A stretch of 64,000 bases of DNA. It comes from Crystallibacter degradans. GTDB taxonomy: Bacteria > Actinomycetota > Actinomycetes > Actinomycetales > Micrococcaceae. Where the stretch lies: NCBI RefSeq assembly GCF_012952295.1, contig NZ_JABBCH010000006.1, positions 124,001-188,000 of the forward strand, read 5' to 3'. Of this stretch, positions 5,813 to 28,143 are shown in pieces (position 1 is the stretch's first letter; the number at the start of each line of letters is the position of its first letter). A program made the translations under genes and the position numbers. The notes below the pieces were generated by a model. It saw only the letters and a list, made by a program, of their open reading frames with translations, was not told the origin of the DNA and ran no database searches.

Positions 5813-6295
5813 GATTTCCTCCGAAGCAGGTTCGATCCCAATATCCCCAAAATCGATATGCGGCCACCTGCCCCCAAGCGCTTCACCATATCGTTATAAA
5901 CCCCTTTGGAATCACAGTATGTACCCCCGGAGGAAGAACCGTCCATAGCTGCGGCAAAATCATGTGCCTCATGACGTTGCCGCCCGGAAATCCACCGTTT
6001 GCGGCGAGGACGGTTCAGTCGGTATAGGTGCGCCAGCGTTCCTTGACGTCTTCGCCGGAGCTCCTCCCACGGCGGTGCGTCCGGCATCCAGAGGCCGCCG
6101 AGGCCAGGAGAACAGAGAGCCGGATCCACCCGCCCACCCCTGCTCAAGCGAGCACGCTACCGGCCGCCTGAGCCGGACTTTACTGGCAGTGCCCAACATT
6201 TTCCTAAGGTCTGCTCCCTAGCGTCGTGTTCACTTCATTGCCCCCGCTCCGAGGAGATGCGTCCGGAGCAGCCAGCGATCCCTAAGGAAAAGAAA
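5813..6295. other. Divergent intergenic region, no convincing gene
   Basis: These 483 bases separate the subtilase (leftward) from the diaminobutyrate aminotransferase (rightward). No reading frame on either strand has a good start with a recognisable product. The region should hold both promoters, but no confident -35/-10 pair can be assigned by eye. Base composition is visibly less G+C-rich around 5820-5960 than in the flanking genes. Confidence 0.4.
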
Positions 6296-7618
6296 TTGAC
6301 GGATATTTTTGCATCCCTGGAGTCCGAGGTCCGCAGCTACAGCCGGGGCTGGGACACTGTTTTCGACCACGCTGCCGGGGACTCGTTGTACAGCGAGGAC
6401 GGCACAGAATATCTTGATTTTTTCTCAGGCGCCGGAGCACTCAACTATGGGCACAATAATCCGCTCCTGCTGGAACCGCTGATCACGTACTTGCGCTCGG
6501 GCTCGGTCGTTCATTCGCTCGATATGAAGACGACGGCGAAGCGGCGATTCCTAGAGACGTTCTTGGAACTGATCCTGGTACCGCGCGGGATGGACTATAA
6601 GGTCATGTTCACCGGTCCCACCGGAACGAACAGCGTTGAAGCGGCACTGAAACTGGCTCGCAAGGTGACTGGCCGGCATCAGGTGCTGAGCTTCACCAAC
6701 GCGTTTCACGGGATGACCCTCGGCGCACTGGCGGTAACCGGCAATTCCATGAAACGACAAGGGGCAGGAGTTCCGCTCAACAACGCCTCCAGCATTCCTT
6801 ATGATGGCTATCTTGACCGGCAGACGGATGATTTGCTGTGGCTGCAGCGCTCATTGGAGGACAGCGGGTCCGGGCTGGACAAACCCGCCGCAGTCATTGT
6901 GGAGACGGTTCAGGGCGAGGGAGGGCTCAGGGCAGCCGGTGGCGCTTGGTTGCGCCGACTCGCTGATATCTGTCAACAGCACGGTGTGCTTCTCATTGTG
7001 GACGATGTTCAAGCCGGGTGCGGGCGTACCGGCAAGTTTTTCAGTTTCGAGGAAGCAGGCATCCGTCCCGACATTGTCTGCCTGTCCAAGTCGCTTTCCG
7101 GTTTCGGGCTTCCGCTGGCCATTACGCTGCTCAAGCCCGAACTGGACATCTGGCAGCCCGGGGAGCACAACGGCACATTCCGAGGCCATAACCCGGCCTT
7201 CGTGACCGGGACTGCTGCGCTGGAGCATTTCTGGAACGGCCGCGGATTCGAGCAACAGATAGCCGCCCGGGCCGCACAGCTGCACGCAGCTCTGGCAACG
7301 CTAGCGGCCGGCACCGAAGGCGCCCGCGTCCGCGGCCGAGGGCTCCTGGCGGGCCTCTATTTTCCAGACCGGACAACGGCACGAAAAATTGCCGCCGAAT
7401 CCTTCGCCCGCGGCTTGCTGGTAGAAACCTCCGGACCGGAGGGCGAAGTGGTCAAAGTCATGCCGGCGCTGACGATCAGCGCGGAGAACATGGCCCGCGG
7501 GCTCGACCTTCTTGCAGGGGCGGTCCGTTCGGTTAGCTGTGAGCGGCCCGAAGAACTACCAAGTGACCTCGGCGGGGAAGTCCTTGAGCCACCAGCGTCC
7601 AGCTCGGTTCTGCAGTAG
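6296..7618 (+). CDS. ectB-like: EctB-type diaminobutyrate--2-oxoglutarate aminotransferase
   Basis: Class III PLP aminotransferase expected to convert L-aspartate-4-semialdehyde plus glutamate to L-2,4-diaminobutyrate. EctB hallmarks are all present: GALNYGHNNP, SFTNAFHGMT, VETVQGEGGL, the cofactor-binding DDVQAGCGRTG, the PLP lysine in CLSKSLSGFG, and the diagnostic GEHNGTFRGHN. The TTG at 6296 is preferred: AAGGA lies seven bases upstream and the protein then begins MTDIFASLESEVRSYSR, like other EctB proteins. The earlier ATG at 6257 abuts its GAGGAG with no spacing. No ectA or ectC follows. The next gene is an aspartokinase and the Pls-type NRPS is downstream, suggesting diaminobutyrate is made as a polymer building block. 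More A/T-ending codons than the neighbours hint at acquisition. Confidence 0.88.
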   Translation: MTDIFASLESEVRSYSRGWDTVFDHAAGDSLYSEDGTEYLDFFSGAGALNYGHNNPLLLEPLITYLRSGSVVHSLDMKTTAKRRFLETFLELILVPRGMDYKVMFTGPTGTNSVEAALKLARKVTGRHQVLSFTNAFHGMTLGALAVTGNSMKRQGAGVPLNNASSIPYDGYLDRQTDDLLWLQRSLEDSGSGLDKPAAVIVETVQGEGGLRAAGGAWLRRLADICQQHGVLLIVDDVQAGCGRTGKFFSFEEAGIRPDIVCLSKSLSGFGLPLAITLLKPELDIWQPGEHNGTFRGHNPAFVTGTAALEHFWNGRGFEQQIAARAAQLHAALATLAAGTEGARVRGRGLLAGLYFPDRTTARKIAAESFARGLLVETSGPEGEVVKVMPALTISAENMARGLDLLAGAVRSVSCERPEELPSDLGGEVLEPPASSSVLQ

Positions 7619-7727
7619 GCGGTTAGCACGTCGGGTCCGAACACATTGGCATGCGGCGGATAGCGCTCCGGATGCACCAGGAGAGCAGGCCGGAGTTGTG
7701 GCGGCAGTCCAAGAGATGGGGGTCAGG

Positions 7728-9206
7728 GTGAACAACTTCAAGCGCCTGGATGAAGCTATTGTCCGCATGGCGAAGGGCTCATTCGCCCAGCAGCACAGCG
7801 CCCCGACGATCGGTGGGCCACTGCCGCTAGGCATACTGCCGCCGGCGGTGGGCACGGCGGGACACTCGAAGAATGTCATAGTGCAGAAGTACGGCGGCTC
7901 GTCGGTGGCGGATGCCGCAGGTATTCGGCGCGTTGCTCAGCGGGTGGCCGAGACACAGGCATCTGGACATCAGGTAGTAGCAGTGGTGTCCGCTATGGGC
8001 GACGCCACCGACGACTTGTTGGATCTCGCGGCCAGTGTCTCGCCTCATCCGCCTGCCCGCGAGCTCGACACCTTATTGACGACTGGTGAACTCGTTTCCG
8101 CGGCCTTGCTGGCGATCGCGTTGGCGGATCTGGGAGCCGATGTTCGGACATTCACAGGAAGCGCGGCGGGCCTCATTACCGACGACTTCCATGGCAAAGC
8201 GCGCATTGTCGATGTCGACCCGCGCCGGATCCGCGCCTGCCTGAAGAACGGTCAGATCGCCGTCGTGGCAGGCTTCCAGGGCAGGAGCCGCAAAGGGAAG
8301 ACGGTCACCACTCTCGGGAGGGGAGGCTCGGACCTGACCGCCGTCGCGCTCGCCGCAGCACTAGGTGCAAGCGTCTGTGAGGTCTATACGGATGTCGACG
8401 GTATCTACACGGCGGATCCACGGATCGTGCCCAATGCCCGCAAGATCGATGTGCTCGCCAGCGAGGAAATGCTTGAGTTCGCAGCCTCGGGAGCAAAGGT
8501 TCTCCACCTCCGATGCATCGAGTACGCTCGCCGCTTCGGCGTTCCGATTCATGTCCGATCCTCGTTCGCGCAAAAGCAGGGCACAATGATTCTGCCCAGT
8601 CTCGACCAGCACCATTCGGAGGCGCAGGCAGGCGAACAGACTCTGGTTTCGGACGTGGCAAGCGTCAACTCTGCAGCACAAGTCACCGTCGCTGGTATCC
8701 CAGACTGCTCCAGGACCGCCGCACGGCTCCTTCAGGACCTCGCCGCAGCGGGACTGAGCATTGAAATGCTCGCCCAAAACCCGCGAGATGCCAGCACCGA
8801 ACTCGCCGATATCACTTTTACCCTTCCGTCCGCGGAGGTGCCGGCAGCGATTGCGGCTCTGGACGCGGCCCAGAGCCGCATCGGATTCGAAGCTCTCCAC
8901 CACAACGACGAAGTAGGCAAGGTCTCGCTCACTGGACTCGGGATGCGCTCTTCCCCCACTGCCTTCAGCACATTTTTCAAAGCGCTGGCCGACGCCGGAA
9001 TCAGTCCGGAAATCATCTCAATTTCGGAACTGTGCATCGCGGCTGTGACGCCTGCCAATCAGCTTGCCGATGCTGTCCGAGCGCTCCAGATGGCTCTTGG
9101 TCTAACGCCGCGGGAGGAGGAAGTGGCGGCCGATGCGCACGCCAGACACACGTCCCCTGTTCGTGTTCAGGCGGCCGCGTCAACGGGGCAAAGGGATTTT
9201 CCATGA
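7728..9206 (+). CDS. lysC-like: Aspartate kinase of the diaminobutyrate/polymer cluster
   Basis: Phosphorylates L-aspartate, the first step toward aspartate semialdehyde, the substrate of the upstream aminotransferase. The kinase domain starts with VIVQKYGGSSVAD and includes VVAVVSAMGDATDDLL, TTGELVSAALLA, GFQGRSRKGKTVTTLGRGGSD and the YTDVDGIYTADPR loop. Two ACT-type regulatory segments follow. In the last ACT region the usual ELISTSEIRIS is changed to EIISISELCIA, which may affect feedback inhibition. The start is uncertain: GTG 7728 has GGGGGTCAGG upstream, while ATG 7716, GTG 7698 and ATG 7767 are alternatives, and about 50 residues precede the conserved kinase start in any case. Chromosomal lysC is normally paired with asd; this copy is not. 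Confidence 0.88.
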   Translation: MNNFKRLDEAIVRMAKGSFAQQHSAPTIGGPLPLGILPPAVGTAGHSKNVIVQKYGGSSVADAAGIRRVAQRVAETQASGHQVVAVVSAMGDATDDLLDLAASVSPHPPARELDTLLTTGELVSAALLAIALADLGADVRTFTGSAAGLITDDFHGKARIVDVDPRRIRACLKNGQIAVVAGFQGRSRKGKTVTTLGRGGSDLTAVALAAALGASVCEVYTDVDGIYTADPRIVPNARKIDVLASEEMLEFAASGAKVLHLRCIEYARRFGVPIHVRSSFAQKQGTMILPSLDQHHSEAQAGEQTLVSDVASVNSAAQVTVAGIPDCSRTAARLLQDLAAAGLSIEMLAQNPRDASTELADITFTLPSAEVPAAIAALDAAQSRIGFEALHHNDEVGKVSLTGLGMRSSPTAFSTFFKALADAGISPEIISISELCIAAVTPANQLADAVRALQMALGLTPREEEVAADAHARHTSPVRVQAAASTGQRDFP

Positions 9207-9387
9207 CATTCGGCTGGAAGGGAAGGCGGACGGTTGGACACCCTGCTCGTGCCGGCCCGTTCCCGCGGTCGAAAACCACCGCAGGCAGCCCCTAACCGAG
9301 ACAACCCCGTTACCTTTCTTATAGCCCCAAAACGAGCAAGAATCGGGGTTGCTGGCCTGTCGGCCCCGGCATGATTTAGTCCCCCAG

Positions 9388-9567
9388 TCGACCATGATCC
9401 GGGGGGGTGTTGTCACCGGGGTTCGATAGGCGCCAGGGGATCGCTAATGGGGACCAGACCAGCCGCGGACACCACCGCGGCAGGCCGGCCGTAACGTGGA
9501 TGCCGAGCTCTGGGGCCGCAGGACATGCCAGCGCTGTCGCACTGGATCCAACTTCCGGAGGTAAGCA
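9388..9567 (+). ncRNA. Candidate bridge-RNA region of the IS110 element
   Basis: IS110-subgroup elements encode a structured guide (bridge) RNA in the non-coding DNA between the left end and the recombinase gene. Here that interval is about 180 bases, contains no open frame of note, and has several G+C-rich complementary segments (for example around 9460-9475, CCGCGGACACCACCGCGG). The assignment rests on position and family knowledge; I did not fold the RNA or identify target- and donor-binding loops. Confidence 0.4.
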
Positions 9568-10767
9568 GTGATCAAGGACCACGAAACGGTCGATGTCTTC
9601 ATCGGCGTCGACGTCGGTAAATCCAACCACCACGCCGTGGCCCTGGACAAAAAAGGCAAAAAACTCCTCGACAAGGCGCTGCCGCAGGACGAGGCGAAAC
9701 TACGCTCGATCATCGACAAACTCGCCAAACACGGGACGCTGCTGCTGGTCGTGGACCAGCCCGCCACCATCGGCGCCCTCCCGGTCGCGGTGGCCCAGGC
9801 CGCCGGCATCATGGTCGGCTACCTGCCCGGCCTGGCCATGCGCCGCATCGCGGACCTGCACCCCGGCGAAGCCAAAACCGATGCCCGGGACGCCTACATC
9901 ATCGCCGAAGCCGCCCGCACGATGCCGCACACGCTGCGCTCGATCGCGGTCGCCGACGAGCAGGCCGCGGAACTGTCCATGCTCTGCGGTTTCGACGACG
10001 ACCTGGCCAAGCAGGCCACCGCCGCCTCGAACCGGATCCGCGGGCTGCTGACCCAGATCCACCCCGCCCTGGAGCGGGCCGTCGGCCCGCACCTGGACCA
10101 CCCCGTGATGGCCGAACTGCTACGCAAATACCCCGGCCCCGAGGCGCTGCGCCGGGCCGGGCAGACACGGGTCGCCGCGTTCATGGTCAAGTACGCCCCG
10201 CGCGCCGGCAAGCCCTGGGCCGCGGAGATCTTCGCCGCCCTGGACCAGCAGAGCGTGGTCGTCTCCGGCACCGGCGCCGCCGGCATCGTGCTGCCCCAGC
10301 TCGCCGCGCAGCTGGCCCAGCTGCGCACCTCCCGCGCCGAGGTCCTGGCCCAGGTGGAGAAACTCGTGGAGGCCCACCCTCTTCACCAACTCCTGACGTC
10401 CCTGCCGGCGGTCGGCGTCAGGACGGCAGCCCGGATCATCACCGAGGTTGTCGGCAAGGAATTCAAGACCGCAGGCCACCTCGGATCCTACTCCGGGCTC
10501 TCGCCCGTCACCTGGCGCTCGGGAACCTCGATCCGCGGCGACCACTCCTCGAAAAAGGGCAACAAAATCCTCAAACGCGCCCTCTTCCTCTCCGCCTTCG
10601 CGGCCCTGAAAGACCCGGTCTCCCGCGCCTACTACGACCGCAAACGGACCGAAGGCAAACGACACAACCAGGCCCTGATCGCCCTCGCCCGACGCCGCTG
10701 CGACGTCATCTTCGCCATGCTGCGCGACGGCACACTCTACGAGGCACCCGCAGCCCAGGCCGCCTAA
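9568..10767 (+). CDS. IS110 family transposase (DEDD recombinase)
   Basis: A 399-residue recombinase starting at GTG, eight bases after GGAGG. The N-terminal RuvC-like DEDD domain shows FIGVDVGKSNHHAVAL (first Asp), LLVVDQPATIG and EAKTDARDAYIIAE. The C-terminal transposase_20 domain contains LPAVGVRTAARIITEV, SYSGLSPVTWRSG and KKGNKILKRALFLSAFAA with the conserved serine-type region of IS110 enzymes. Full length with no frameshift, so the element could be active. It is in the same orientation as the flanking biosynthetic genes. Confidence 0.93.
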   Translation: MIKDHETVDVFIGVDVGKSNHHAVALDKKGKKLLDKALPQDEAKLRSIIDKLAKHGTLLLVVDQPATIGALPVAVAQAAGIMVGYLPGLAMRRIADLHPGEAKTDARDAYIIAEAARTMPHTLRSIAVADEQAAELSMLCGFDDDLAKQATAASNRIRGLLTQIHPALERAVGPHLDHPVMAELLRKYPGPEALRRAGQTRVAAFMVKYAPRAGKPWAAEIFAALDQQSVVVSGTGAAGIVLPQLAAQLAQLRTSRAEVLAQVEKLVEAHPLHQLLTSLPAVGVRTAARIITEVVGKEFKTAGHLGSYSGLSPVTWRSGTSIRGDHSSKKGNKILKRALFLSAFAALKDPVSRAYYDRKRTEGKRHNQALIALARRRCDVIFAMLRDGTLYEAPAAQAA

Positions 10768-10925
10768 AAGAGCCGCACACCAGCCGGCCGGCACCCGCCG
10801 CCGGCCGATACCCCCTGCCCAAAAACCCCGACCCGACGCAGCAACGAAAAACGGCCGAACCGCTTGACAAAGAACATAGGGACACCCCCCAGACACCGAA
10901 AGCACCGTATCAACGAGAGGTACCG

Positions 10926-13900
10926 ATGGCTCTGGCTGATAATTCCTATCCTGCACGCACCGCGGCTGACGCAGTTCATGAGACGGTGCCAGCTACTTTG
11001 GACCAGTTGCTGCTGCAGTCCTCGCACCACCAGAGTGTGCGGTGGTCTCCGGGTGAGCGTCTGGAAACGCTCTTCGAGAGCCAATGCGACTCGTTACGCC
11101 GCGATGGCCGCGCAGGCCAGTTGGCGGTCGACTCCGGGGACTCGACGTTGACCTACGATCAGCTGGACGCGCAGGCCAATCAGTTGGCCCGTCATTTGCT
11201 GGCCGACGGCGCACAGGCCGGCGACCGCATTGCGCTGCTGTTCGACAATGCGGTGTGGTCCTATGTCGCGATGCTGGCGGTGCTGAAGATTCAGGCGGCG
11301 TATGTGCCGTTGGACGCCGGGTTCCCCACGGACCGGATGGGATACATCATGGAGGACTCCGGGACCAGCCGCGTGCTGACCCAGAGCCACCTGACCAGTC
11401 TCTTGCCGGAAGTCTGCTGCCGCGCTCTGGCTTTGGACGCGGCCGCCACGGACGTCGCGGGTCTGCCTGGCTCCCGACTCACAGACATCGAGAAGCCCGA
11501 GCCGGTCGAGGACTTGGCCTACGTCATCTATACTTCGGGGTCCACCGGCCGCCCCAAGGGGGTGGGCATCGAACACTCCAGCATTTGCAACTTCGTCCGC
11601 GTCGCCGCCGAGGTCTACGGATATCAGAGCGACGACCGTGTCTATCAGGGGCTGACGATCGCCTTCGACTTCTCGGTCGAGGAGATGTGGGTGCCGTGGA
11701 TGGTCGGAGCGACGCTGGTGCCCAAGCCGAGTTCGAAGAGCCTGCTCGGAGCGGACCTGGGACGCTTCGTAACCGACAACCGTATTACCGCGATGTGTTG
11801 TGTACCAACCCTGCTGGCCACGCTGGAGGATGAGCTCCCCGACCTGCGTTTCTTGCTCGTCTCCGGTGAAGCCTGCCCGCGCGATCTGGCAGAGCGCTGG
11901 CACCGGCCGGGCCGGCGATTCCTCAATGTCTACGGACCTACAGAAGCGACCGTGACCGCCACGTGGGACGTCATGCACCCCGACAAGCCCATTACCCTAG
12001 GTCAGCCGCTGCCGACCTACACGACCATGATCCTGGATCCCGAGAAGCCACGGGCCCTGCCGCGGGGCGAGATGGGTGAGATCGGCATCGCCGGAATCGG
12101 ACTCGCAGTCGGGTACATGAACCATCCCGAGAAGACGAATGCAGTTTTCATCCCCGACTTCATGGGCATTCCGAACAACCCCTCCGGACGCATCTACCGC
12201 AGCGGCGACCTTGGCCGCATCACGAACGACGGGTTGATCGAGTACTACGGCCGGATCGACACCCAGGTCAAGATCCGCGGATACCGGATTGAGCTGTCCG
12301 AGATTGAATCGGTGCTCCTGCAAGTCCCCGGGATCGCGCAGGCAGTGGTCGCGACGCATGAATCAGCACCGGGGATGACAGAGCTCGCCGCGTTCTATAC
12401 GTTGCGCCACGGCGTCTCCGATCTCGCGCCGCAGATGATCAGGGAGGAGCTCCGCGACCGGCTGCCGAGCTACATGATCCCGGCCTTCTACGAGCAGCTT
12501 GAGACCATGCCGATGCTGCCCAGCGACAAGGCCGACCGGAAAAACCTGCCGACGCCCAGCAACCGGGTGAGCGACTCGGCCGACGCCGAGTACTGCGAAC
12601 CCGCCACGGATATCGAGGCGGCTCTGGCCGAGCAGCTTGGAGCCGTGCTGGGAATGGAACGCATCTCCGTGGAGGCGCACATCTTCGACAACCTCGGGGC
12701 CAACTCCCTGCTGATTGCGCGCTTCTCCGCTGAGTTGCGCAAAAACACCGACCTGCCGCCGGTCGGTGTACAGATCATCTACGAGCATCCGACCATTCGA
12801 GGTCTAGCTGCGGCAATCGCGGCTCCGGCCGCCGCAGACGTATGGGCGGAACAGGAACCACGTCCCCGGCCCAAACGAGGGCGGGCCACCATTTTCGACA
12901 TGGTGCTCTGCGGTTTTCTGCAAGCTGTACTCGCCATTGCCTACTCCTATGCATTCATCACGGCGATCGTGGCAGGCTACCTCTGGGTCGCCGCAGGTGC
13001 CAATATCCTGGAGAGCTGGGGACGTTCGGTCATCTTCGGGGTCATCTTCTTCTTGGCTCTTTGCATCGTGCCGATCCTGCTCAAATGGCTGATCCTGGGA
13101 CGGTGGGAAGAGCAACACATTCGCATTTGGTCCCTGGCATACGTGAAATTCTGGTTTGTCCGTGCGCTGGTCAGGCTCAACCCGCTGGCCTACTTCGTCG
13201 GGACCCCAATCCTTCCCTTCTACCTACGGTTGCTGGGCGCAAAGATCGGCCACAACGTCACCATCCTCACCCCCATCACCCCGGTGTGCACCGACCTGTT
13301 GACCATCGGTTCCGGGACGGTGATCAACAAGGATACGTTCTTCCTGTGCTACCGCGCCCATGACGGATGGATCCAGACCGGCCGGGTCACGCTTGGCCAG
13401 GACGTCCTGATCAGCGAGAGGTGCGTGCTGGACATCGACTCCACAATGGGTGACGGAGCGCAACTGGGCCACTCGTCGTCACTGCAGCGACTGCAGTCTG
13501 TACCCGCGGGCGAGAGCTGGCACGGATCCCCTGCCGTGCCGACCGATGTGAACTACCGGTTCATCGAACCGCTGCGGGCCAGCCGACGGCGCCAGATCAC
13601 CTACAGCGCGCTTGTCCTGCTCAACAACATGGCGTTGTTCGCCCCGCTGCTTCTGCTGGCCATCGCGCTGTTCGTGCCGGCCTACTTGGCAACTGACCAT
13701 CTGAATTATGCGGACCCAGGATTCTACGTGGATCTGGTGTTGGTTTCTTTCGTCTTGCTGTTCGGTGGCATCGTCCTCGTGTTGTCCGCTGTGCTGACGA
13801 TTCCTCGGCTGCTCAACCTCCTGATCAAACCGGGGCGGACGTATCCGCTGTACGGTCTGCATTACGCGGTCCACCGGTTAATCATCCGAATGACGAATGT

Positions 13901-15005
13901 CTTCCAGTTCATGCACATCAGCGGAGACAGCTCACTGGCCGTGCACTACCTCCGTCTGTTGGGCTACAAGCAACCCAACCAGATACAGACCGGATCGAAT
14001 TTCGGGACCGAACTCGACCACGAGAACCCTTACCTGACCACGGTGGGATCCGGGACCATGATCTCCGACGGCGTGTCGATCATGAACGCCGACTACTCAA
14101 GTACGTCCTTCAGCGTAACCGAGGTAAAAATCGGGACGAATAACTTCTTCGGCAACGACATCCCGTATCCCGCAGGTGCTCGTGCGGGCGACAACGTTCT
14201 GTTCGGCAGCAAGACCATGATTCCCATCCACGGCGAGGTCCGGCAAAACGTCGGCTTGCTGGGTTCACCGGCATTCGAGATTCCCCGGTCGGTCGATCGC
14301 GACACGGCGTCGCTCAAGATCGACAGCAGGGAGGAAATCCTCCGTCGGCTGCCGGCCAAAAACCGGCACAACGCGATATCTATTGGACTGTACCTGGCCA
14401 GCCGGTGGGTCCTCGTCCTCGCCGGCCTGCTCGCGTACTCGTTCGCCATCATACTATTCCCGGGTGTTCCGGGCCTGGGGCTCTATGTGGGCACCATCGG
14501 CTTCGGCGCTTTCATGATCGCCTTCTTCATTGTGCTCGAGCGTGCTGCCCAGGGATTCAAAGCGATGGTCCCGATCCGGTGCTCGATCTATGACGTGAGG
14601 TTCTGGCGGCACGAACGGTTCTGGAGGTTCATCGGGTATCCCCTGCCATTCTTCGACGGCACCCCGTTCAAGCCTGTGTTCTGGCGCCTTTACGGCGTGC
14701 GGATGGGCAAGCGGGTCTTCGACGATGGCTGCGTCATTCCGGAGAAAACGTTGGTCACCATCGGCGACGACACGATTCTGAATACTGCCAGCGTCGTCCA
14801 GTGCCACTCAATGGAGGACGGCGTCTTCAAACTGGACGCCATCGACGTCGGCCACGGGGTCACGTTGGGCGTAGGCTCCTACCTGCTGTATGACGCCGTT
14901 ATGGGCGACGGTTCCGTGCTGGAGGCCGACTCCTTCCTGATGAAGGGGAGCCAAGTGCCGAAAGGCGCCCGGTACGGCGGCAACCCCGCACAGGAAATCA
15001 CCTAG
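10926..15005 (+). CDS. pls-like: Pls/PosA-type membrane NRPS, predicted poly(amino acid) synthetase
   Basis: A 1359-residue single-module peptide synthetase with the layout of epsilon-poly-L-lysine synthetase (Pls). The adenylation domain (about 50-545) has YTSGSTGRPKG near residue 202 and catalytic Lys535. A carrier domain (about 565-640) has LGANSL, with Ser594 as the phosphopantetheine site. Three tandem C-terminal soluble domains (about 760-880, 975-1125, 1205-1359), each hexapeptide-repeat-like, are separated and preceded by pairs of membrane helices (about 660-722, 895-960, 1148-1205). There is no ordinary condensation or thioesterase domain. Pls enzymes polymerise one diamino acid through its side-chain amine. 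The nearby diaminobutyrate aminotransferase and aspartokinase make poly(2,4-diaminobutyrate) the most likely product; polylysine is the alternative. The ATG has a GAGAGG site. Confidence 0.9.
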   Translation: MALADNSYPARTAADAVHETVPATLDQLLLQSSHHQSVRWSPGERLETLFESQCDSLRRDGRAGQLAVDSGDSTLTYDQLDAQANQLARHLLADGAQAGDRIALLFDNAVWSYVAMLAVLKIQAAYVPLDAGFPTDRMGYIMEDSGTSRVLTQSHLTSLLPEVCCRALALDAAATDVAGLPGSRLTDIEKPEPVEDLAYVIYTSGSTGRPKGVGIEHSSICNFVRVAAEVYGYQSDDRVYQGLTIAFDFSVEEMWVPWMVGATLVPKPSSKSLLGADLGRFVTDNRITAMCCVPTLLATLEDELPDLRFLLVSGEACPRDLAERWHRPGRRFLNVYGPTEATVTATWDVMHPDKPITLGQPLPTYTTMILDPEKPRALPRGEMGEIGIAGIGLAVGYMNHPEKTNAVFIPDFMGIPNNPSGRIYRSGDLGRITNDGLIEYYGRIDTQVKIRGYRIELSEIESVLLQVPGIAQAVVATHESAPGMTELAAFYTLRHGVSDLAPQMIREELRDRLPSYMIPAFYEQLETMPMLPSDKADRKNLPTPSNRVSDSADAEYCEPATDIEAALAEQLGAVLGMERISVEAHIFDNLGANSLLIARFSAELRKNTDLPPVGVQIIYEHPTIRGLAAAIAAPAAADVWAEQEPRPRPKRGRATIFDMVLCGFLQAVLAIAYSYAFITAIVAGYLWVAAGANILESWGRSVIFGVIFFLALCIVPILLKWLILGRWEEQHIRIWSLAYVKFWFVRALVRLNPLAYFVGTPILPFYLRLLGAKIGHNVTILTPITPVCTDLLTIGSGTVINKDTFFLCYRAHDGWIQTGRVTLGQDVLISERCVLDIDSTMGDGAQLGHSSSLQRLQSVPAGESWHGSPAVPTDVNYRFIEPLRASRRRQITYSALVLLNNMALFAPLLLLAIALFVPAYLATDHLNYADPGFYVDLVLVSFVLLFGGIVLVLSAVLTIPRLLNLLIKPGRTYPLYGLHYAVHRLIIRMTNVFQFMHISGDSSLAVHYLRLLGYKQPNQIQTGSNFGTELDHENPYLTTVGSGTMISDGVSIMNADYSSTSFSVTEVKIGTNNFFGNDIPYPAGARAGDNVLFGSKTMIPIHGEVRQNVGLLGSPAFEIPRSVDRDTASLKIDSREEILRRLPAKNRHNAISIGLYLASRWVLVLAGLLAYSFAIILFPGVPGLGLYVGTIGFGAFMIAFFIVLERAAQGFKAMVPIRCSIYDVRFWRHERFWRFIGYPLPFFDGTPFKPVFWRLYGVRMGKRVFDDGCVIPEKTLVTIGDDTILNTASVVQCHSMEDGVFKLDAIDVGHGVTLGVGSYLLYDAVMGDGSVLEADSFLMKGSQVPKGARYGGNPAQEIT

Positions 15006-15025
15006 ACGTCGAGAGAAGGACGCGG

Positions 15026-15313
15026 ATGGGCTTAACTCAAGACAAGCAAGGCCGCGACGGCCCTGCTGGATATCTCGTCGGTATCGGTGCGGGACTGGCG
15101 ATCGCCAGCAGCCTCGGACTCCATGTTGGCGGCCGGTCTGTTCCTCCGGACCGAGCGCGCGGGCGCACGCTCGATGAAGCATCTCGCCGCGATGGGTACG
15201 ATGGCCTTGACCTCTACTCCGTGCACCTGCTCCCGCTCATCACTGTGGCGCATTATGGGAAACCCGCTACGTTAGAATGCTGTCCTCATGCCGCACTGAT
15301 AAGGACGAAATGA
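15026..15313 (+). CDS. Small ORF coupled to the NRPS and M28 genes
   Basis: A 95-residue frame starting 21 bases after the NRPS stop with a good AGAAGGA site five bases before ATG. Its TGA overlaps the ATG of the M28 peptidase (ATGA at 15310-15313), the usual sign of translational coupling. The first 40 residues include a Gly/Ala-rich hydrophobic stretch (GYLVGIGAGLAIASSLGL) that could be one membrane helix. The rest is polar and unlike any family I recognise and may be a frameshifted or decayed tail. The operon position argues for a real gene; the composition argues for decay. Confidence 0.5.
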   Translation: MGLTQDKQGRDGPAGYLVGIGAGLAIASSLGLHVGGRSVPPDRARGRTLDEASRRDGYDGLDLYSVHLLPLITVAHYGKPATLECCPHAALIRTK

Positions 15314-16347
15314 AACTGCACTGGCACCGGAGAACAATTGTCCTCATCGCGGCGCTCGGGCTGTGTGTTGTCCTTTTGGCGCTTACGCTGGTCAGTGGGC
15401 GGACGGACGATTCCGCGCCGCGGGGTCAGGGTCGCGCGGCAACCGGGCCACAGTCGCAGCCGCAGGCGACCACAGCGTACGAGCATCTGGAAGAGTTTCA
15501 AGCAATTGCCGATGAGCACGGCGACCGAGCTGCCGGCACCTCCGGATATGAGGCCGCGGCTCAGTATGTCGAACAGCAGCTCGCCAGTGCTGGGTATCAA
15601 AGCAGCCGCCAGTACTTCACTGTCGAAGATCATGGCGAAGAATTTGAGTCTTTCAACATCATTGCGGAGACCGATGGCGGCAGCGAAGATAACGTGATCA
15701 TGCTTGGCGCACACCTCGACGGGGTGCAGAACAGCCCAGCAATCAATGACAATGCTTCCGGCGTGGCGGCACTGCTGCAGGCCGCGAAAGAACTGAGCCA
15801 GCGGGATGAGCCCAAGAACAAAGTACGCTTCGCGTGGTGGGGGGCAGAGGAGTTTCGCGAGCCGATCGGTTCTGAGCACTACGTCGAGGACCTGGCCGAC
15901 AGCGGCGAACTCGACGACATCGCCGCCTATCTGAACTTCGACATGGTCGCCTCGCCCAACTATGTCATCGCGGTCTATGACGCACGGGAATCCGATACCT
16001 GGCTCGAAGTGCCTGACGGTTCGAGGCAGATCATGGAGTTCTTCACTGACTACTTCGACTCCCGCGACCAGCCCTGGGTGACTACCGGGTGGAATTTCGA
16101 TTCCGATCAGAGGGCGTTCATTGAGGAAGGCGTTGCAGTAGGCGGCCTGTTCACCGGCAGCAACGAGAGGAAATCGCGTAAGCAGGCCAACATCTTCGGC
16201 GGCGAGGCAAGGGAGCCGCGCGATCCCAATTACCACACGTCAGGCGATGACATCAGCAACGTCGATCAGGAAGCGCTGAGCATTATGACCGACGCAATCA
16301 CACATGCCGCTACCAGCCTGGCTGAGGACAGCAGCGCCCTCGAGTAA
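15310..16347 (+). CDS. Secreted M28 family zinc aminopeptidase
   Basis: A 345-residue precursor with an N-terminal signal/anchor (about 8-30), then an M28 peptidase domain. The zinc ligands and catalytic residues of the family are visible: MLGAHLDGV, AINDNASGVAALL, WWGAEEF, LNFDMV and YHTSGDD. M28 aminopeptidases remove N-terminal residues and act outside the membrane. The ATG at 15310 follows AAGGACGAA and overlaps the stop of the preceding small ORF, so the gene is the last of the NRPS operon. By analogy with polylysine producers, which encode a polymer-degrading peptidase, it may trim or degrade the polymer; that role is inference. Confidence 0.88.
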   Translation: MKLHWHRRTIVLIAALGLCVVLLALTLVSGRTDDSAPRGQGRAATGPQSQPQATTAYEHLEEFQAIADEHGDRAAGTSGYEAAAQYVEQQLASAGYQSSRQYFTVEDHGEEFESFNIIAETDGGSEDNVIMLGAHLDGVQNSPAINDNASGVAALLQAAKELSQRDEPKNKVRFAWWGAEEFREPIGSEHYVEDLADSGELDDIAAYLNFDMVASPNYVIAVYDARESDTWLEVPDGSRQIMEFFTDYFDSRDQPWVTTGWNFDSDQRAFIEEGVAVGGLFTGSNERKSRKQANIFGGEAREPRDPNYHTSGDDISNVDQEALSIMTDAITHAATSLAEDSSALE

Positions 16348-16460
16348 TCGGGGCAGCGGGAAATAGGGCATAAAATCAGCACTAATTATTCAACTCCATC
16401 CGGGCTTACCGTGGAATGAGGCGTCGTCCGTTCCGGACGACCTGACATGGAGGTTCTGTC

Positions 16461-16754
16461 GTGACTGTCACCACCAGTGTTGCCGACTGCAGCGTGACCC
16501 GCTGCGGGTTCAATGACCATGAAGGCTGTACCGCGGTTGCCATCACCGTAGGCGGAGGTGAAGACCATGCCGCCTGCGCAACCTTTGTAGACATCGGAAA
16601 GCATGGCGGCCTGCCCAAGGTTCTCGCCCAGGTGGGCGCTTGCCAGCGGGCGGAGTGCGTCCACAACGACCACCTGCTCTGCAGCGCAGCCGAAGTCCAT
16701 GTCGGCCCGGGAGCCGACAATGCGGACTGCCTAACCTACGCACACAAGCCCTAG
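16461..16754 (+). CDS. DUF1540 cysteine-rich protein with two repeats
   Basis: A 97-residue protein from a GTG start with GGAGG seven bases upstream. Two tandem DUF1540 units are visible, about residues 7-43 and 60-94, each with the pattern C-x3-4-C-x6-7-C and a final C before an aromatic residue (ADCSVTRCGFNDHEGC; GACQRAECVHNDHLLC). The Cys/His pattern suggests metal binding, probably zinc, but no function has been shown for the family as far as I know. No signal peptide is visible. Confidence 0.8.
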   Translation: MTVTTSVADCSVTRCGFNDHEGCTAVAITVGGGEDHAACATFVDIGKHGGLPKVLAQVGACQRAECVHNDHLLCSAAEVHVGPGADNADCLTYAHKP

Positions 16755-16936
16755 CCGGCGTGCCGGTGACCGGCTTCCGGCACCGCCGTAACCATAGCTC
16801 GGCCCTTGCGCTGGAGTGTCTCCTCGAACCGCTCCAGCGCATTGCTCTGCCGAAAATTACCGGATGATCGCGCGCCCCGCAGGAGAAATGGGGTAGCGGC
16901 TTCACGGCGTCGGATGGAGTCACAGGTGGATAACAT
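16751..16936 (-). CDS. Possible small protein, unknown
   Basis: A 61-residue minus-strand frame beginning MLSTCDSIRRRE and ending AGHRHAG, with GAGGGG nine bases before its ATG. Third-position G/C is strong in the distal half. Its stop shares a CTAG with the stop of the DUF1540 gene, so the two would overlap by four bases. No family is recognised and no homologue can be tested here, so it may be chance. It fills most of the otherwise empty interval before the PRC-barrel gene. Confidence 0.3.
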   Translation of the reverse strand: MLSTCDSIRRREAATPFLLRGARSSGNFRQSNALERFEETLQRKGRAMVTAVPEAGHRHAG

Positions 16937-17062
16937 CCGTTGCAGCCCCTCGGTACCGTCCGTAACGTGAAAAACAGGGCGCAGACAAACCCGCCCTGGA
17001 TGGAGGAGTTCCAGGACCAAGCAACCGAACCGCTCGATACTGAATTGCGACGAGGAGAAACC

Positions 17063-17488
17063 ATGACAGACGATAAAGCCGCCAGCCTCCAAAAGCTCAG
17101 CGACATTGCCCGGACCGTCTCCCAAGAAGACGAAGACATCCGCGGCAGGAACGTCAAAGCCAGAGACGGCGAAGACCTTGGCGAAGTCGACGACCTCCTG
17201 ATCGACCCGACGGAAAACAACGTACGCTTCCTGGTGGTCGCCTCCGGAGGATTCCTCGGGCTGGGCCAGACAAAGTCGTTCATTCCCGTTGAAGCCGTCG
17301 CAGGGATCACTGCCGATGAAGTCCGTATTGACCAGGCAAAAGACAAGATAGCAGGTGCGCCGACCTACGATCCCGACATCGTCGAGGAACGCGGCTATTA
17401 CGAGGATCTCTACGGCTACTACGGCTACACCCCCTACTGGGCTCCCGGGTACATCTACCCCGGCTACCCCTATCCCCCGGTGAGGTGA
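17063..17488 (+). CDS. PRC-barrel domain protein
   Basis: A 141-residue soluble protein. The ATG at 17063 has GAGGAG five bases upstream; longer in-frame starts lie in non-coding sequence. The PRC barrel spans about residues 25-95 (GRNVKARDGEDLGEVDDLLI, then RFLVVASGGFLGLG and SFIPVEAV). The C-terminus is a Tyr/Gly/Pro-rich tail (GYYEDLYGYYGY and following). PRC-barrel proteins of this kind are common stress-associated or envelope-associated proteins of uncertain role. Confidence 0.85.
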   Translation: MTDDKAASLQKLSDIARTVSQEDEDIRGRNVKARDGEDLGEVDDLLIDPTENNVRFLVVASGGFLGLGQTKSFIPVEAVAGITADEVRIDQAKDKIAGAPTYDPDIVEERGYYEDLYGYYGYTPYWAPGYIYPGYPYPPVR

Positions 17489-25212: not shown

Positions 25213-28143
25213 TTACAACGAGCCCTTGACCAAGCCCGGCTTCACGCCGTTGTTCGTGAATCGCGTGCCGGCGTAGTAGTACATGGCGCCCGTCGGCCTG
25301 GTAGCCAGCAGATCCGTGTTGTTGTCCGTGCCGGCATCACCCGGTCCGAGGATCCGGTTGTACTGCGACCAGCCGCTGCTGCCGATCTTGCGTTCCGCCG
25401 CGAACCACCCGCCCGAGGAGGCGCTGGTGCGTCCGGCCAGCAGCCACAGCGTGCCGTCAGGCTTGCGGGCCGTCAGGTCGCCGGTGCCGCCGTCGTCGTA
25501 ATCTCCGACCGCGGTGAGGTGGTCGTACTTGTTCCAGCCGGTGGCGATCCGGCTGCGCGCGGAAACCTTGCCCGTGCCGGTGCCCGGATAGAGCCACGCC
25601 GTGCCGTCCGGGCGCACGCCGATCAGGTCCTTCTTGCCGTCCCGGTTCACGTCGCCGGCGCCCAGCAGCGTGTTGAACTGGTTCCAGCCGCTGGCGCCGA
25701 TGCGGATCCGCGGCATGTAGCCTTCGCTGATGGAGTTGACCCGGCCGGTGCCCTTGTAGAGCCACAGCGAGCCGTCCTTTTCGCGGGCCAGCAGGTCGTT
25801 GGCGCCGTCCCGGTTGAAGTCGCCCACGCCGACCAGCGCGGTGTAGATCTGCCAGCCGGTGCCGATGCGCACCGCGGCGGCGTGGCCGCCCCTGCCGTTG
25901 CCGGCGGCGAACCACAGCGTGCCGTTGGACTTGCTGGCCACCAGGTCTGCCTTGCCGTCGCCGTTGAAGTCGCCCGGCGTCGCCACCAGGTTGTAGGCGT
26001 TCCAGCCCGTTCCGGCGGCCACGTGCGGCAGCATGCCGGAGGCGTCCTGCATCTGGGTGCCGGCGTAGAAACGCAGCGACTTGTCCGGGTAGATGCCCAG
26101 CACGTCCGGCTTCCTGTCGCCGTTGTTGTCGCCCGCGCCGAGGACCTGGCTGAACTTCTGCCAGCCGCTGGAGCCGACCTTCTGCGGCACGCCGAACGAG
26201 GCATTCAGAGCCGCCTTCCGGCCGGTTCCCCGGTACAGCCACAGCGTGCCGTCGGCCTTAACCGCGAGGACGTCGGCCTTGCCGTCGCCGGAGTAGTCGC
26301 CCGGAGCGGCGAGCTTGGTGTACTTCCAGCCCGAGGCGACCTGGACCCGGGAGCCGGTCTTCCCGGTGCCTAGGCCCGGGTAGAACCACACGGTCCCGTC
26401 CGGGCGCGTGGCCAGCACGTCCGCCCGGCGGTCCCCGTTCAGATCGCCGGCGGCAATGACCTCGGTGAACTGGTTCCAGCCGCTTGAGCCGACCTTGACC
26501 CTGGGCTTGAAGGTCTTGGTGCCGACGGCGCCGGTGCCCTGGTAGAGCCAGAGCGAGCCGTCCCGGTGGCGGGCCAGCAGGTCAGGGTACGCATCGCCGT
26601 CGTAATTCCCTGCGCCGACCAGCTTGTTGTAGATGTGCCAGCCGCCGCCGATCTTCACGGCCTTGCCGTAGCCGCCGGCGCCGTTGCCCGGGTAGTACCA
26701 GAGGCTGCCGTCGGTGCGGCGGGAGACCATGTCGCTCTTGCCGTCGCGGTTCAGGTCGCCGGGGACAGCGCTGGTGACGGTGTAGTCGCCGGCTGGCTTC
26801 GGCGCCACGGCGGGTGCCGGGGCGCTCACGCCGTTGGGGTACTTGGCGAAAGCGACCAGCTGCGCCTGGGTGCCGCGCCAGACGTTGGAGTCGCCGAGGA
26901 AGGGGCCGGATTCGCTGTACTGCCAGATGTCGTAGCGGGTCCAGCCGGCGGGCAGCCACGGGTAGGTGACATTGCCGGTGGAGAAGTGCGCGATGTGCAG
27001 CGGGTGGTCCTTGAAGGCGCTGCTGTAGCCCAGGCACTGGTTCCACCAGCTGCCGTTGGTGTAGATGGCCGGCACGCGGCCGGTCCGGGCCTTGATCTGG
27101 TTGGAGAAGTCGCGCACCCAGTTGACCAGCTGCGAGGGGCTCATGTTGTAGCAAGTGTTGCCCAGCTCCGGGTACGGGTTGAACTCGATGTCCAGCAGCG
27201 GCGGCAGCGTCCTGCCGTCGGCGGACCAGCCGCCGCCGTTGTTGACGAAGTAATCCGCCTGGGCCTTGCCGCTGGTGACGTTGGGGATGGCGAAGTGGTA
27301 GGCGCCGCGGATCATGCCCACCTTGTAGGAGCCGGAGTACTGGCTGCCGTAGCTGGGGTTCTTATAGCTGGTCGCTTCGGTGGCCTTCACGTAGGCGAAG
27401 CGGGCGCCGAGGTTCCACTCGGTCTGCCAGTTCACGCTCGGCTGCCAGCCGGAGACGTCCATACCCTGGACGCCCGGCGCACGCCAGTGGTTGCGGTTGG
27501 TGGCCGCGGCGATGGTGACGGCTGCCGTCCGCTCGATCTCGAGGACGTCGAGCGTTTCGGCGAGCTCCTCCTGCGCGTCTTCCTGCTTGAGCTCTGCTTC
27601 GCGTTCCTGGCGCATCTCCAGGCCCTTGCCCATCTCGGCGCCGTGTTCGCCCTGCAGCTCTTCCAGGAGGGCCAGCTTCTGCGCCTGCGTCAGCTTGTCC
27701 ACGTCCACCTCGACGGGGGTCTCCGACGCCGGTGTGCCCGTATCCTCGGCGGGTTCGGTGGCGGTCTGGCCCGGTTCGGGGGCTTCCGGCGCTTCAGTGG
27801 CCGGCCCATCTGACGGCTCATCAATGGGGTCGACGGCGGGCGTTTCCGCCGGTGCGGCGTCTTCCACCGGTTCCGCGGACCCGAGCACGTCCGGCAGCGT
27901 TTGCCGTTCGGCCAGGCCCTTGTCAACCGACGACGGCGGCGCCTGGGTTTCGGTTGGTTCGGTCACCGTGACGGCCGGGGCGGGGAGGGATTCGGCCGCT
28001 GCTGCCGGCTGCATGATGAGCACTCCGGCCACGCTGATGGTCAGGGCGGTGGCACCGGAGACAGCGCGCTGCCAGGCCTTCCGGGAGGTCAATCGTTTAT
28101 ATAACGGACCGCAGGCAGGCGGGCGCGAATGAACGGTGTTCAT
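25213..28143 (-). CDS. Secreted GH25 lysozyme with ten FG-GAP repeats
   Basis: A 976-residue secreted muramidase expected to cut peptidoglycan between MurNAc and GlcNAc. Order: signal peptide (about 1-48, AAAA cleavage region), Pro/Glu/Thr-rich spacer (about 50-145), a coiled-coil-like Gln/Glu/Leu segment (about 150-220), the GH25 domain (about 235-440) with [21 protein letters not shown] and catalytic D318-x-E320, then ten FG-GAP/VCBS-type repeats of about 45-50 residues. The repeats have DxNxDGxxD calcium-type loops, for example [20 protein letters not shown] and [10 protein letters not shown], and W(F/L)YxG turns. The repeats probably form a beta-propeller for wall or glycan binding. The ATG has GGAG six bases upstream. 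Confidence 0.92.

Follow-up and report, generated by a model that had tools for sequence, protein, structure and literature searches.

Few cationic homopoly(amino acid)s have been described. PMC9606270 names six linear homopoly(amino acid)s, of which one is anionic, and antimicrobial, antifungal, antiviral or cell-penetrating activities have been reported for several of these polymers (PMC8117764, PMC9606270). The gene set for poly(2,4-diaminobutyric acid) (poly-Dab) comprises an aspartate kinase, a 2,4-diaminobutyrate (Dab) transaminase and a Pls homologue (PMC8225329, PMC8117764). Here, we analysed a 64,000-nucleotide stretch of the Crystallibacter degradans genome (hereafter the window; positions 124001–188000 of contig C81 in a 4.96-Mb draft), which carries genes for an EctB-type aminotransferase (ectB), an aspartokinase (ask), a Pls-type synthetase (pls) and an M28 peptidase. 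Sequence comparison leads us to propose, with a probability of about 0.78, that the genes of this cluster form a pathway devoted to making a cationic homopolymer of Dab.

The closest described systems share parts of this arrangement. The gamma-poly-L-Dab cluster of Streptomyces celluloflavus (pldA, dat, ask) resembles it in synthetase architecture and in the adjoining Dab aminotransferase and aspartokinase (PMC8117764). In the window, however, the place of Dat is taken by an ectoine-derived EctB, an M28 peptidase is present and the synthetase belongs to another deep clade; the Streptomyces synthetases linked to Dat and Ask genes, which are PldA-like by inference only, are 33%–34% identical to that of the window. 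The pddA–D cluster of Streptoalloteichus hindustanus likewise combines a Pls-like synthetase with an aspartokinase and a Dab aminotransferase (PMC8225329); it differs from the window, in which no gene for a DapF-like racemase was found. In Streptomyces albulus, Pls (7WEW) and PldII also form a pair of a membrane synthetase, with adenylation (A), thiolation (T) and three C-terminal units (A–T–C1C2C3), and a following peptidase gene, and the carrier Ser and C3 His are conserved in lysine-type relatives too; the pocket (DAESIGTVVK against DFECLSVVTK in the window) is different, and the window has an M28 peptidase in place of an M1-type one. The M1-type enzyme was seen in a Streptomyces locus (L264:4820–6226), in which an M1-family peptidase gene is coupled, in a PldII-like position, to the lysine-type Pls. 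PosA of Acinetobacter baumannii, which makes delta-poly-L-ornithine, is of the same family, and its C-terminal domain is likewise modelled as three left-handed beta-helices related by approximate three-fold symmetry, whereas its pocket (DMEHNGTVSK), its single-gene operon and its substrate set it apart (PMC10522769). The ectoine cluster ectABC(D) shares an EctB homologue, but the window itself contains neither ectA nor ectC. The kind of pathway is already known; the window synthetase lies in a deep branch for which no description was found in the literature searched, subscription journals being mostly outside the reach of that search.

The gene cluster and the proposed pathway

A first-pass annotation of this DNA had described an EctB-type aminotransferase, an aspartokinase, a Pls-type non-ribosomal peptide synthetase and a secreted M28 peptidase running in one direction. 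All four genes lie on the plus strand and are supported by profiles, but an IS110 element at 9304–10884, unmentioned there, sits between ask and pls. The features are as follows.

6257..7618, + strand: ectB-type L-2,4-diaminobutyrate:2-oxoglutarate aminotransferase (TIGR02407)
7716..9206, + strand: aspartokinase (ask), adjoining ectB; AA_kinase and ACT domains, NF005155 above cut-off
9304..10884, + strand: IS110-family insertion element, not at the syntenic locus of Arthrobacter sp. VKM Ac-2550
9568..10767, + strand: IS110 transposase, 399 aa; DEDD_Tnp_IS110 and Transposase_20, NF033542 above cut-off
10926..15005, + strand: Pls-type single-module synthetase (pls), 1359 aa, predicted gamma-poly-Dab synthetase (TIGR02353)
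11118..12530, + strand: its adenylation domain, residues 65–535 (AMP-binding, AMP-binding_C)
12621..12818, + strand: its thiolation (carrier) domain, residues 566–631, with Ser594 (PP-binding)
12843..15002, + strand: its membrane polymerisation domain, modelled as three units, each of two long helices and a left-handed beta-helix
15026..15313, + strand: short open reading frame (ORF), remnant of an HGSNAT_cat membrane acyltransferase gene, from matches to the intact VKM Ac-2550 gene
15277..16347, + strand: M28 zinc peptidase, secreted or membrane-anchored (Peptidase_M28, 143 bits; start at 15277 or 15310)

The aminotransferase scores 625.6 bits against NCBIfam TIGR02407 (cut-off 552.2). Its probable start is the TTG at 6296, preceded by AAGGAAAAG, and Lys278, which we take to be the pyridoxal phosphate lysine, is kept in all 56 aligned rows, the window row included. 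Kinase homology of the aspartokinase extends from about 7872 onward. The genome holds four aspartokinases above cut-off, and that of the window is 56% identical to the one on contig C37, presumably the primary enzyme. The A domain, the carrier domain and the Pls-type terminal domain of the synthetase are all found on one chain (AMP-binding, PP-binding and TIGR02353, the last at 643.6 bits against a cut-off of 423.1). The Peptidase_M28 match bears out the earlier call of an M28 enzyme. The protein has a single strong N-terminal hydrophobic segment, and what we take to be the M28 metal-ligand motifs are kept in 7/7 aligned sequences, with the window's counted.

In the proposed pathway, the aspartokinase would feed the aspartate pathway, and aspartate semialdehyde would come from a housekeeping Asd, presumed to be encoded elsewhere. 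The EctB-type enzyme would transaminate the semialdehyde to L-2,4-diaminobutyrate. The A domain of Pls would then adenylate Dab, with Asp235 and Glu239 holding the alpha- and side-chain amines and Phe236 filling or shortening the pocket, and Dab would be loaded on the carrier Ser594. The membrane domain, putatively a covalent three-fold repeat of hexapeptide-acyltransferase units with an invariant His1294 in C3, would join the aminoacyl thioester to the chain via side-chain (gamma) amides and pass the chain out. Outside the membrane, the M28 peptidase probably degrades the polymer for self-protection or turnover, a role in which we have weak to moderate confidence. The assignment of Dab as the substrate is strong; the gamma linkage and the L-configuration we infer from family precedent and from the lack of a racemase gene.

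Substrate pocket and supply genes

Ten pocket positions were read by alignment, with position numbers that we take to be those of GrsA. The window pocket is DFECLSVVTK. Among the 20 lysine-type controls, DAESIGTVVK was found in 19 and DAESIGTVIK in one, and a by-eye reading of the alignment gave DAESIGTVVK for the S. albulus Pls structure 7WEW. A lysine pocket, which the first-pass annotation had held would speak against its poly-Dab prediction, is therefore not what the window enzyme has. A lysine polymer was rejected given the Phe at position 236 in place of Ala and the code as a whole. Phe236 of the window lies within FDFSVEE. Position 236 is Phe in synthetases for poly(diaminopropionic acid) (PDAP) and poly(diaminobutyric acid) (PDAB), Met in PosA and Ala in lysine enzymes, and Asp235 and Glu239 of PosA bind the two amines (PMC10522769); both acidic residues are retained in the window synthetase, as in PosA. 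The pocket is one position off the DFECLSAVTK of the Dat–Ask-linked Streptomyces enzymes, and differs from another Streptomyces code, DFEYVGTVTK, at positions 278, 299, 301 and 322. PDAP, PDAB and poly-beta-lysine synthetases are described as hard to tell apart by sequence alignment (PMC10522769). A literature search for the pocket strings found none in use.

We surveyed the neighbourhoods of relatives picked by synthetase motifs alone. Named genomes, one per species (84,980 species), were scanned using two A-domain motifs and a profile built from seven synthetases, and the best 80 of 148 confirmed matches yielded 79 named loci, which are related to one another and whose genes were called with a simple codon-usage caller. 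The lysine-type controls were drawn from relatives at the levels of genus, family and order, as a non-random subset of many such rows. No more than 6 kb from the synthetase, 58/79 loci have a gene for a Dab aminotransferase (EctB or Dat), in contrast to 0/20 controls (Fisher p = 6e-10), and 32/79 have one for an aspartokinase, again against 0/20 (p = 3e-4); both p values are uncorrected for relatedness. An M28 peptidase was seen within the same distance in 9/79 loci versus 0/20. When the loci were confined to those with at least 5 kb on either side, the aminotransferase was present in 44/54 against 0/20. The exact pocket DFECLSVVTK occurs in 57 of the 76 named relatives with a full synthetase gene call (L067, L103 and L105 were left out), 47 of which have the aminotransferase. 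The aminotransferase accompanies 55/67 rows with Ser301, in contrast to 0/6 rows with Gly301, these six forming one clade; the three other rows have a gap or another letter at this position. Furthermore, Pls and Dat are fused in single ORFs of about 2000–2120 aa in three Pseudonocardia genomes (L068:9764–15910, L089:9944–16114 and L101:10040–16027), the only such fusions among 85 synthetase ORFs. The poly-Dab prediction of the first-pass annotation is thus supported by the pocket and by its strong genomic link to Dab supply. A scan of viral contigs with the synthetase gave no relative.

These data also bear on whether a different short diamino acid, most notably 2,3-diaminopropionate (Dap), is the monomer of the polymer, with ectB–ask serving something else. 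Phe236 is common to Dap enzymes (PMC10522769), and the A domain of a PDAP synthetase weakly accepts Dab too (PMC4668381), so that pocket and supply could mismatch. However, the presumed PDAP code DFEYVGTVTK, which has Gly301, has no adjoining Dab aminotransferase in 3/3 Streptomyces loci, and both the partition of aminotransferases between Ser301 and Gly301 rows and the three Pls–Dat fusions argue for Dab. We consider a Dap polymer quite improbable.

Several observations count against a Dab polymer made by this cluster. Phe236 is not confined to Dab enzymes, being also found in those that polymerise Dap. No aminotransferase was found within 6 kb in 21/79 loci, some of which are ended by contig edges, and it is missing from 10/57 loci with the exact pocket, five of which extend at least 10 kb on both sides. 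Two of three window-type Streptomyces loci (L256 and L257) and the paralogue on contig C41 of the window genome have no aminotransferase nearby. Finally, no enzyme of the window clade could be linked in this analysis to a measured product.

The survey yielded further observations on the relatives. Two Pls-type synthetases (L056:3626–8413 and L085:8599–13707) have a C-terminal match to a phosphopantetheinyl transferase (PPTase; ACPS), above the Pfam cut-off in L056 and below it in L085; these enzymes could perhaps activate their own carrier domains. Two Pseudonocardia loci (L079 and L091) carry another Pls-like gene, some 1.8 kb downstream of the first one. The Gly301 rows are an alphaproteobacterial subclade (L108, L117, L118, L119, L121 and L122; DFEALG, DFECMG) with no Dab aminotransferase within 6 kb and, in all six loci, a PPTase-like match downstream.

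Family placement and stereochemistry

A tree of 39 synthetases places the 22 rows of the window clade on one side of a 100/100 branch, apart from the lysine-type Pls enzymes, which are about 28%–32% identical to the window synthetase; the tree program warned that long branches meet between the lysine and window groups. The clade is also apart from two Streptomyces groups, which join each other at 99/99. The first, with pocket DFEYVGTVTK and presumed to be of the PDAP type, comprises three rows, none of which has Dab supply genes beside it. The second, with pocket DFECLSAVTK, also comprises three rows, all with Dat and Ask directly adjoining; these are presumed to be of the PldA type in view of the Dat–Ask neighbours, the pocket and the presence of a lysine-type synthetase in the same genomes. 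The near-identical pockets of the window clade and the Dat-linked Streptomyces group may reflect shared ancestry or convergence, and both would point to Dab. In PMC8117764, no match to PldA, PddA or the PDAP synthetase was obtained in cheese and skin genomes at thresholds of 40% identity and 80% coverage, which fits the distance of the window clade from PldA-like enzymes.

With regard to stereochemistry, three DapF queries found no DapF-like racemase in the window or in loci L035–L164, and PF01678 detects one DapF gene in the genome. Actinokineospora diospyrosa has a second DapF-like gene, with no synthetase beside it within its 3.4-kb locus. Given that no Dab racemase was found, L-Dab is predicted. 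The product could instead be gamma-poly-D-Dab, as in Streptoalloteichus hindustanus, since the supply enzymes are the same as PddC and PddD (PMC8225329), and PddB is only weakly DapF-like, so that a divergent racemase could escape the search. Poly-D-Dab was rejected in view of the negative search of the window and loci L035–L164 and the single DapF gene, and we regard it as highly improbable.

Origin of the aminotransferase

The extractable aminotransferases of the named loci, not counting the window and two other loci, comprise 26 of the EctB type and 29 of the Dat type. In a 55-row tree, the window EctB falls in a nine-row pls-linked clade (SH-aLRT 99) nested among ectoine EctBs of the same family or order; a further 14 pls-linked EctB rows form a group of their own (89). 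To explain the labels EctB, Dat and none, the synthetase tree requires 23 changes, against a mean of 38.9 after shuffling. These clades and counts come from quick trees, and one label is wrong, L039 being marked none while having a divergent EctB on the opposite strand. Thus, EctB and Dat replace one another many times on the synthetase tree while the pocket stays unchanged.

The window EctB scores above the equivalog cut-off for EctB and has its ancestry among the ectoine EctBs, and so might make Dab for ectoine. The first-pass annotation had argued against this from the absence of ectA and ectC. That absence holds for the 64-kb window, in which EctA and EctC queries found no match, but not for the genome, which has a complete ectABCD on contig C37. 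This cluster contains the sole ectC of the genome and its own ectB, whose product is 71%–72% identical to the window EctB. The window ectB is therefore not needed for ectoine, a supply role that we rejected and hold to be very remote, and it looks dedicated to this cluster.

The polymerising domain

The first-pass annotation had also predicted three soluble domains and six helices in the synthetase. A structure model of residues 640–1359, built from 20 sequences (mean pLDDT 87.7, pTM 0.89), agrees with this, with six long helices in three pairs and a left-handed beta-helix unit after each pair. Foldseek gave hexapeptide (left-handed beta-helix) acyltransferases as the best structural matches. 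The domain is thus predicted to have six transmembrane helices in three pairs and three soluble units, as in Pls- and PosA-type enzymes. Sequence alignment revealed that Ser594 of the carrier and His1294 of C3 are kept in 86/86 window-type rows (L038, L041 and L044 being second copies of named records) and in 20/20 lysine-type controls, and no His was common to the two sets at the C1 and C2 positions checked. Hexapeptide acyltransferases use a catalytic His as general base. By analogy with them, His1294 is a candidate general base, and we have weak to moderate confidence in a single working C3 site among the three. A three-fold beta-helix model of the C-terminal domain has already been published for PosA (PMC10522769), and the fold is therefore not new; what is added here is the pattern of conserved Ser594 and His1294.

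These comparisons allow a broader proposal, to which we give even odds: the window enzyme would represent a large uncharacterised clade of Dab-homopolymer synthetases, with a repeatedly swapped partner, Ser301 as the mark of Dab and a single C3 His. By a hand count, the window-type clade spans at least 20 named genera in four phyla. It would mostly keep the pocket DFECLS[V/A]VTK, with a partner that is Dat, an older EctB-like enzyme or, in Arthrobacter, an EctB captured from ectoine synthesis. Gly301 would characterise lysine, ornithine and presumed Dap enzymes, in contrast to Ser301 in Dab users, and a single histidine, that of C3, would serve polymerisation in a pseudo-trimer of covalently joined hexapeptide-acyltransferase units.

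The operon in the window strain

The closest relative is found in Arthrobacter sp. VKM Ac-2550, where ectB, ask and pls are followed, in this order, by the genes for a 417-aa HGSNAT_cat membrane protein, a PPTase and the M28 peptidase. Identity to it is 98% for ectB, 97% for ask, 87% for pls and 81% for M28, and the adenylation domain is 98.4% identical over residues 50–545. The syntenic locus of VKM Ac-2550 is without the IS110 element, which in the window is 1.58 kb long, starts 98 bp past the stop codon of ask and leaves 42 bp between its end and the ATG of pls. It is the one full-length copy in the genome, in addition to a 190-bp piece on contig C37 (94%) and weaker partial matches. The short ORF behind pls, which the first-pass annotation took for a coupled gene, does overlap a possible M28 start with its stop (ATGA at 15310), but is not a gene in its own right. 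It is a remnant of a membrane acyltransferase gene: stretches of it correspond to the beginning and to the 3′ portion of the intact gene for the 417-aa HGSNAT_cat protein, about 0.8 kb between these is gone, and the reading frame changes within the ORF. For the PPTase gene downstream of the acyltransferase gene in VKM Ac-2550, there is no match in the 64-kb window.

Similarity to VKM Ac-2550 changes along the cluster. Whereas ectB, ask and the A domain are 97%–98% identical at the DNA or protein level, DNA identity is 78%–86% from about codon 550–600 of pls through the end of M28. The synonymous divergence (dS) of pls is at most 0.1 per 100-codon stretch in codons 1–500 and 0.44–0.82 from codon 701. 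The flank at 16354–17288 is again 96% identical, its counterpart in VKM Ac-2550 lying about 6 kb farther along. The dip in DNA identity from about 97% to about 80% over window positions 12550–16354 has the appearance of a recombination block that spans the peptidase as well as the polymerising domain. Most simply, this 3.8-kb stretch would have been exchanged in one of the two strains.

The remaining points against a Dab polymer come from this comparison: IS110 splits pls from ectB–ask, only a remnant of the acyltransferase gene is left, the window has no PPTase gene, and the C-terminal half of pls has 74 window-specific changes versus 43 in VKM Ac-2550 (outgroup L051, chi2 8.2). The operon of the window strain might therefore be decaying or silent, whatever its ancestor made, as the position of IS110, the acyltransferase remnant, the missing PPTase gene and the mosaic 3′ half of pls would suggest. 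However, the frames of ectB, ask, pls and M28 are all open and the checked residues are kept. The ratio of nonsynonymous to synonymous divergence (dN/dS) against VKM Ac-2550, which sums the history of both lineages, is 0.24 for whole pls, with 0.14–0.27 per 100-codon stretch from codon 701 and 0.30–0.33 for codons 501–700. The relative-rate excess is less clear with outgroups L052 and L039 (chi2 2.0 and 0.7), and strong decay of the synthetase was rejected because the test is not consistent between outgroups. We judge a decaying or silent operon unlikely, while granting it a real chance; the insertion and the lost companion genes may lower or alter expression in the window strain.

The acyltransferase also raises the idea that the product is a modified or capped Dab oligomer, made through the HGSNAT-type acyltransferase of relatives, with strains that have lost it making bare polymer. 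Matches to the VKM Ac-2550 HGSNAT-type protein occur within 6 kb in 7/79 named loci, and a Pfam-confirmed one adjoins the C41 pls of the window genome. Such matches are also near 3/20 lysine-type controls, and the link is thus unspecific. A capped oligomer is, in our view, improbable.

Other loci in the genome

The genome encodes four Pls-type proteins above the TIGR02353 cut-off, in the window and on contigs C13, C41 and C55, none of whose loci reads as lysine-type. The C13 and C41 paralogues, 94% identical, have the same pocket as the window enzyme; that on C13 is accompanied by Dat and Ask, that on C41 by neither. The C55 locus (L037:249–8138) is a split Pls-type system, in which one protein combines four carrier-domain matches with a Pls membrane domain, and which also includes a separate A–T protein (pocket DIWQSTADDK), a TauD-type dioxygenase and an ornithine-cyclodeaminase-like protein. 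Similar partial matches without an A domain are common in the genus of the window strain. They also rank first in most of the 107 Streptomyces genomes, out of 295, that gave a match. A third Dat–Ask pair, with a BTAD regulator, lies on contig C114 (L142:8828–12634); its Dat is 97% identical to the C13 copy, and no synthetase was found within the 20 kb read. Elsewhere in the window, positions 25213–28092 encode a protein of 959 aa that combines FG-GAP repeats with a lysozyme-like domain of glycosyl hydrolase family 25.

Significance

In summary, the pocket, the supply genes and the fusions together would provide a concrete and cheap test for Dab users among Pls-type synthetases, and thereby more candidate producers of cationic homopolymers. 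The fused synthetase–aminotransferase enzymes might make their own monomer.

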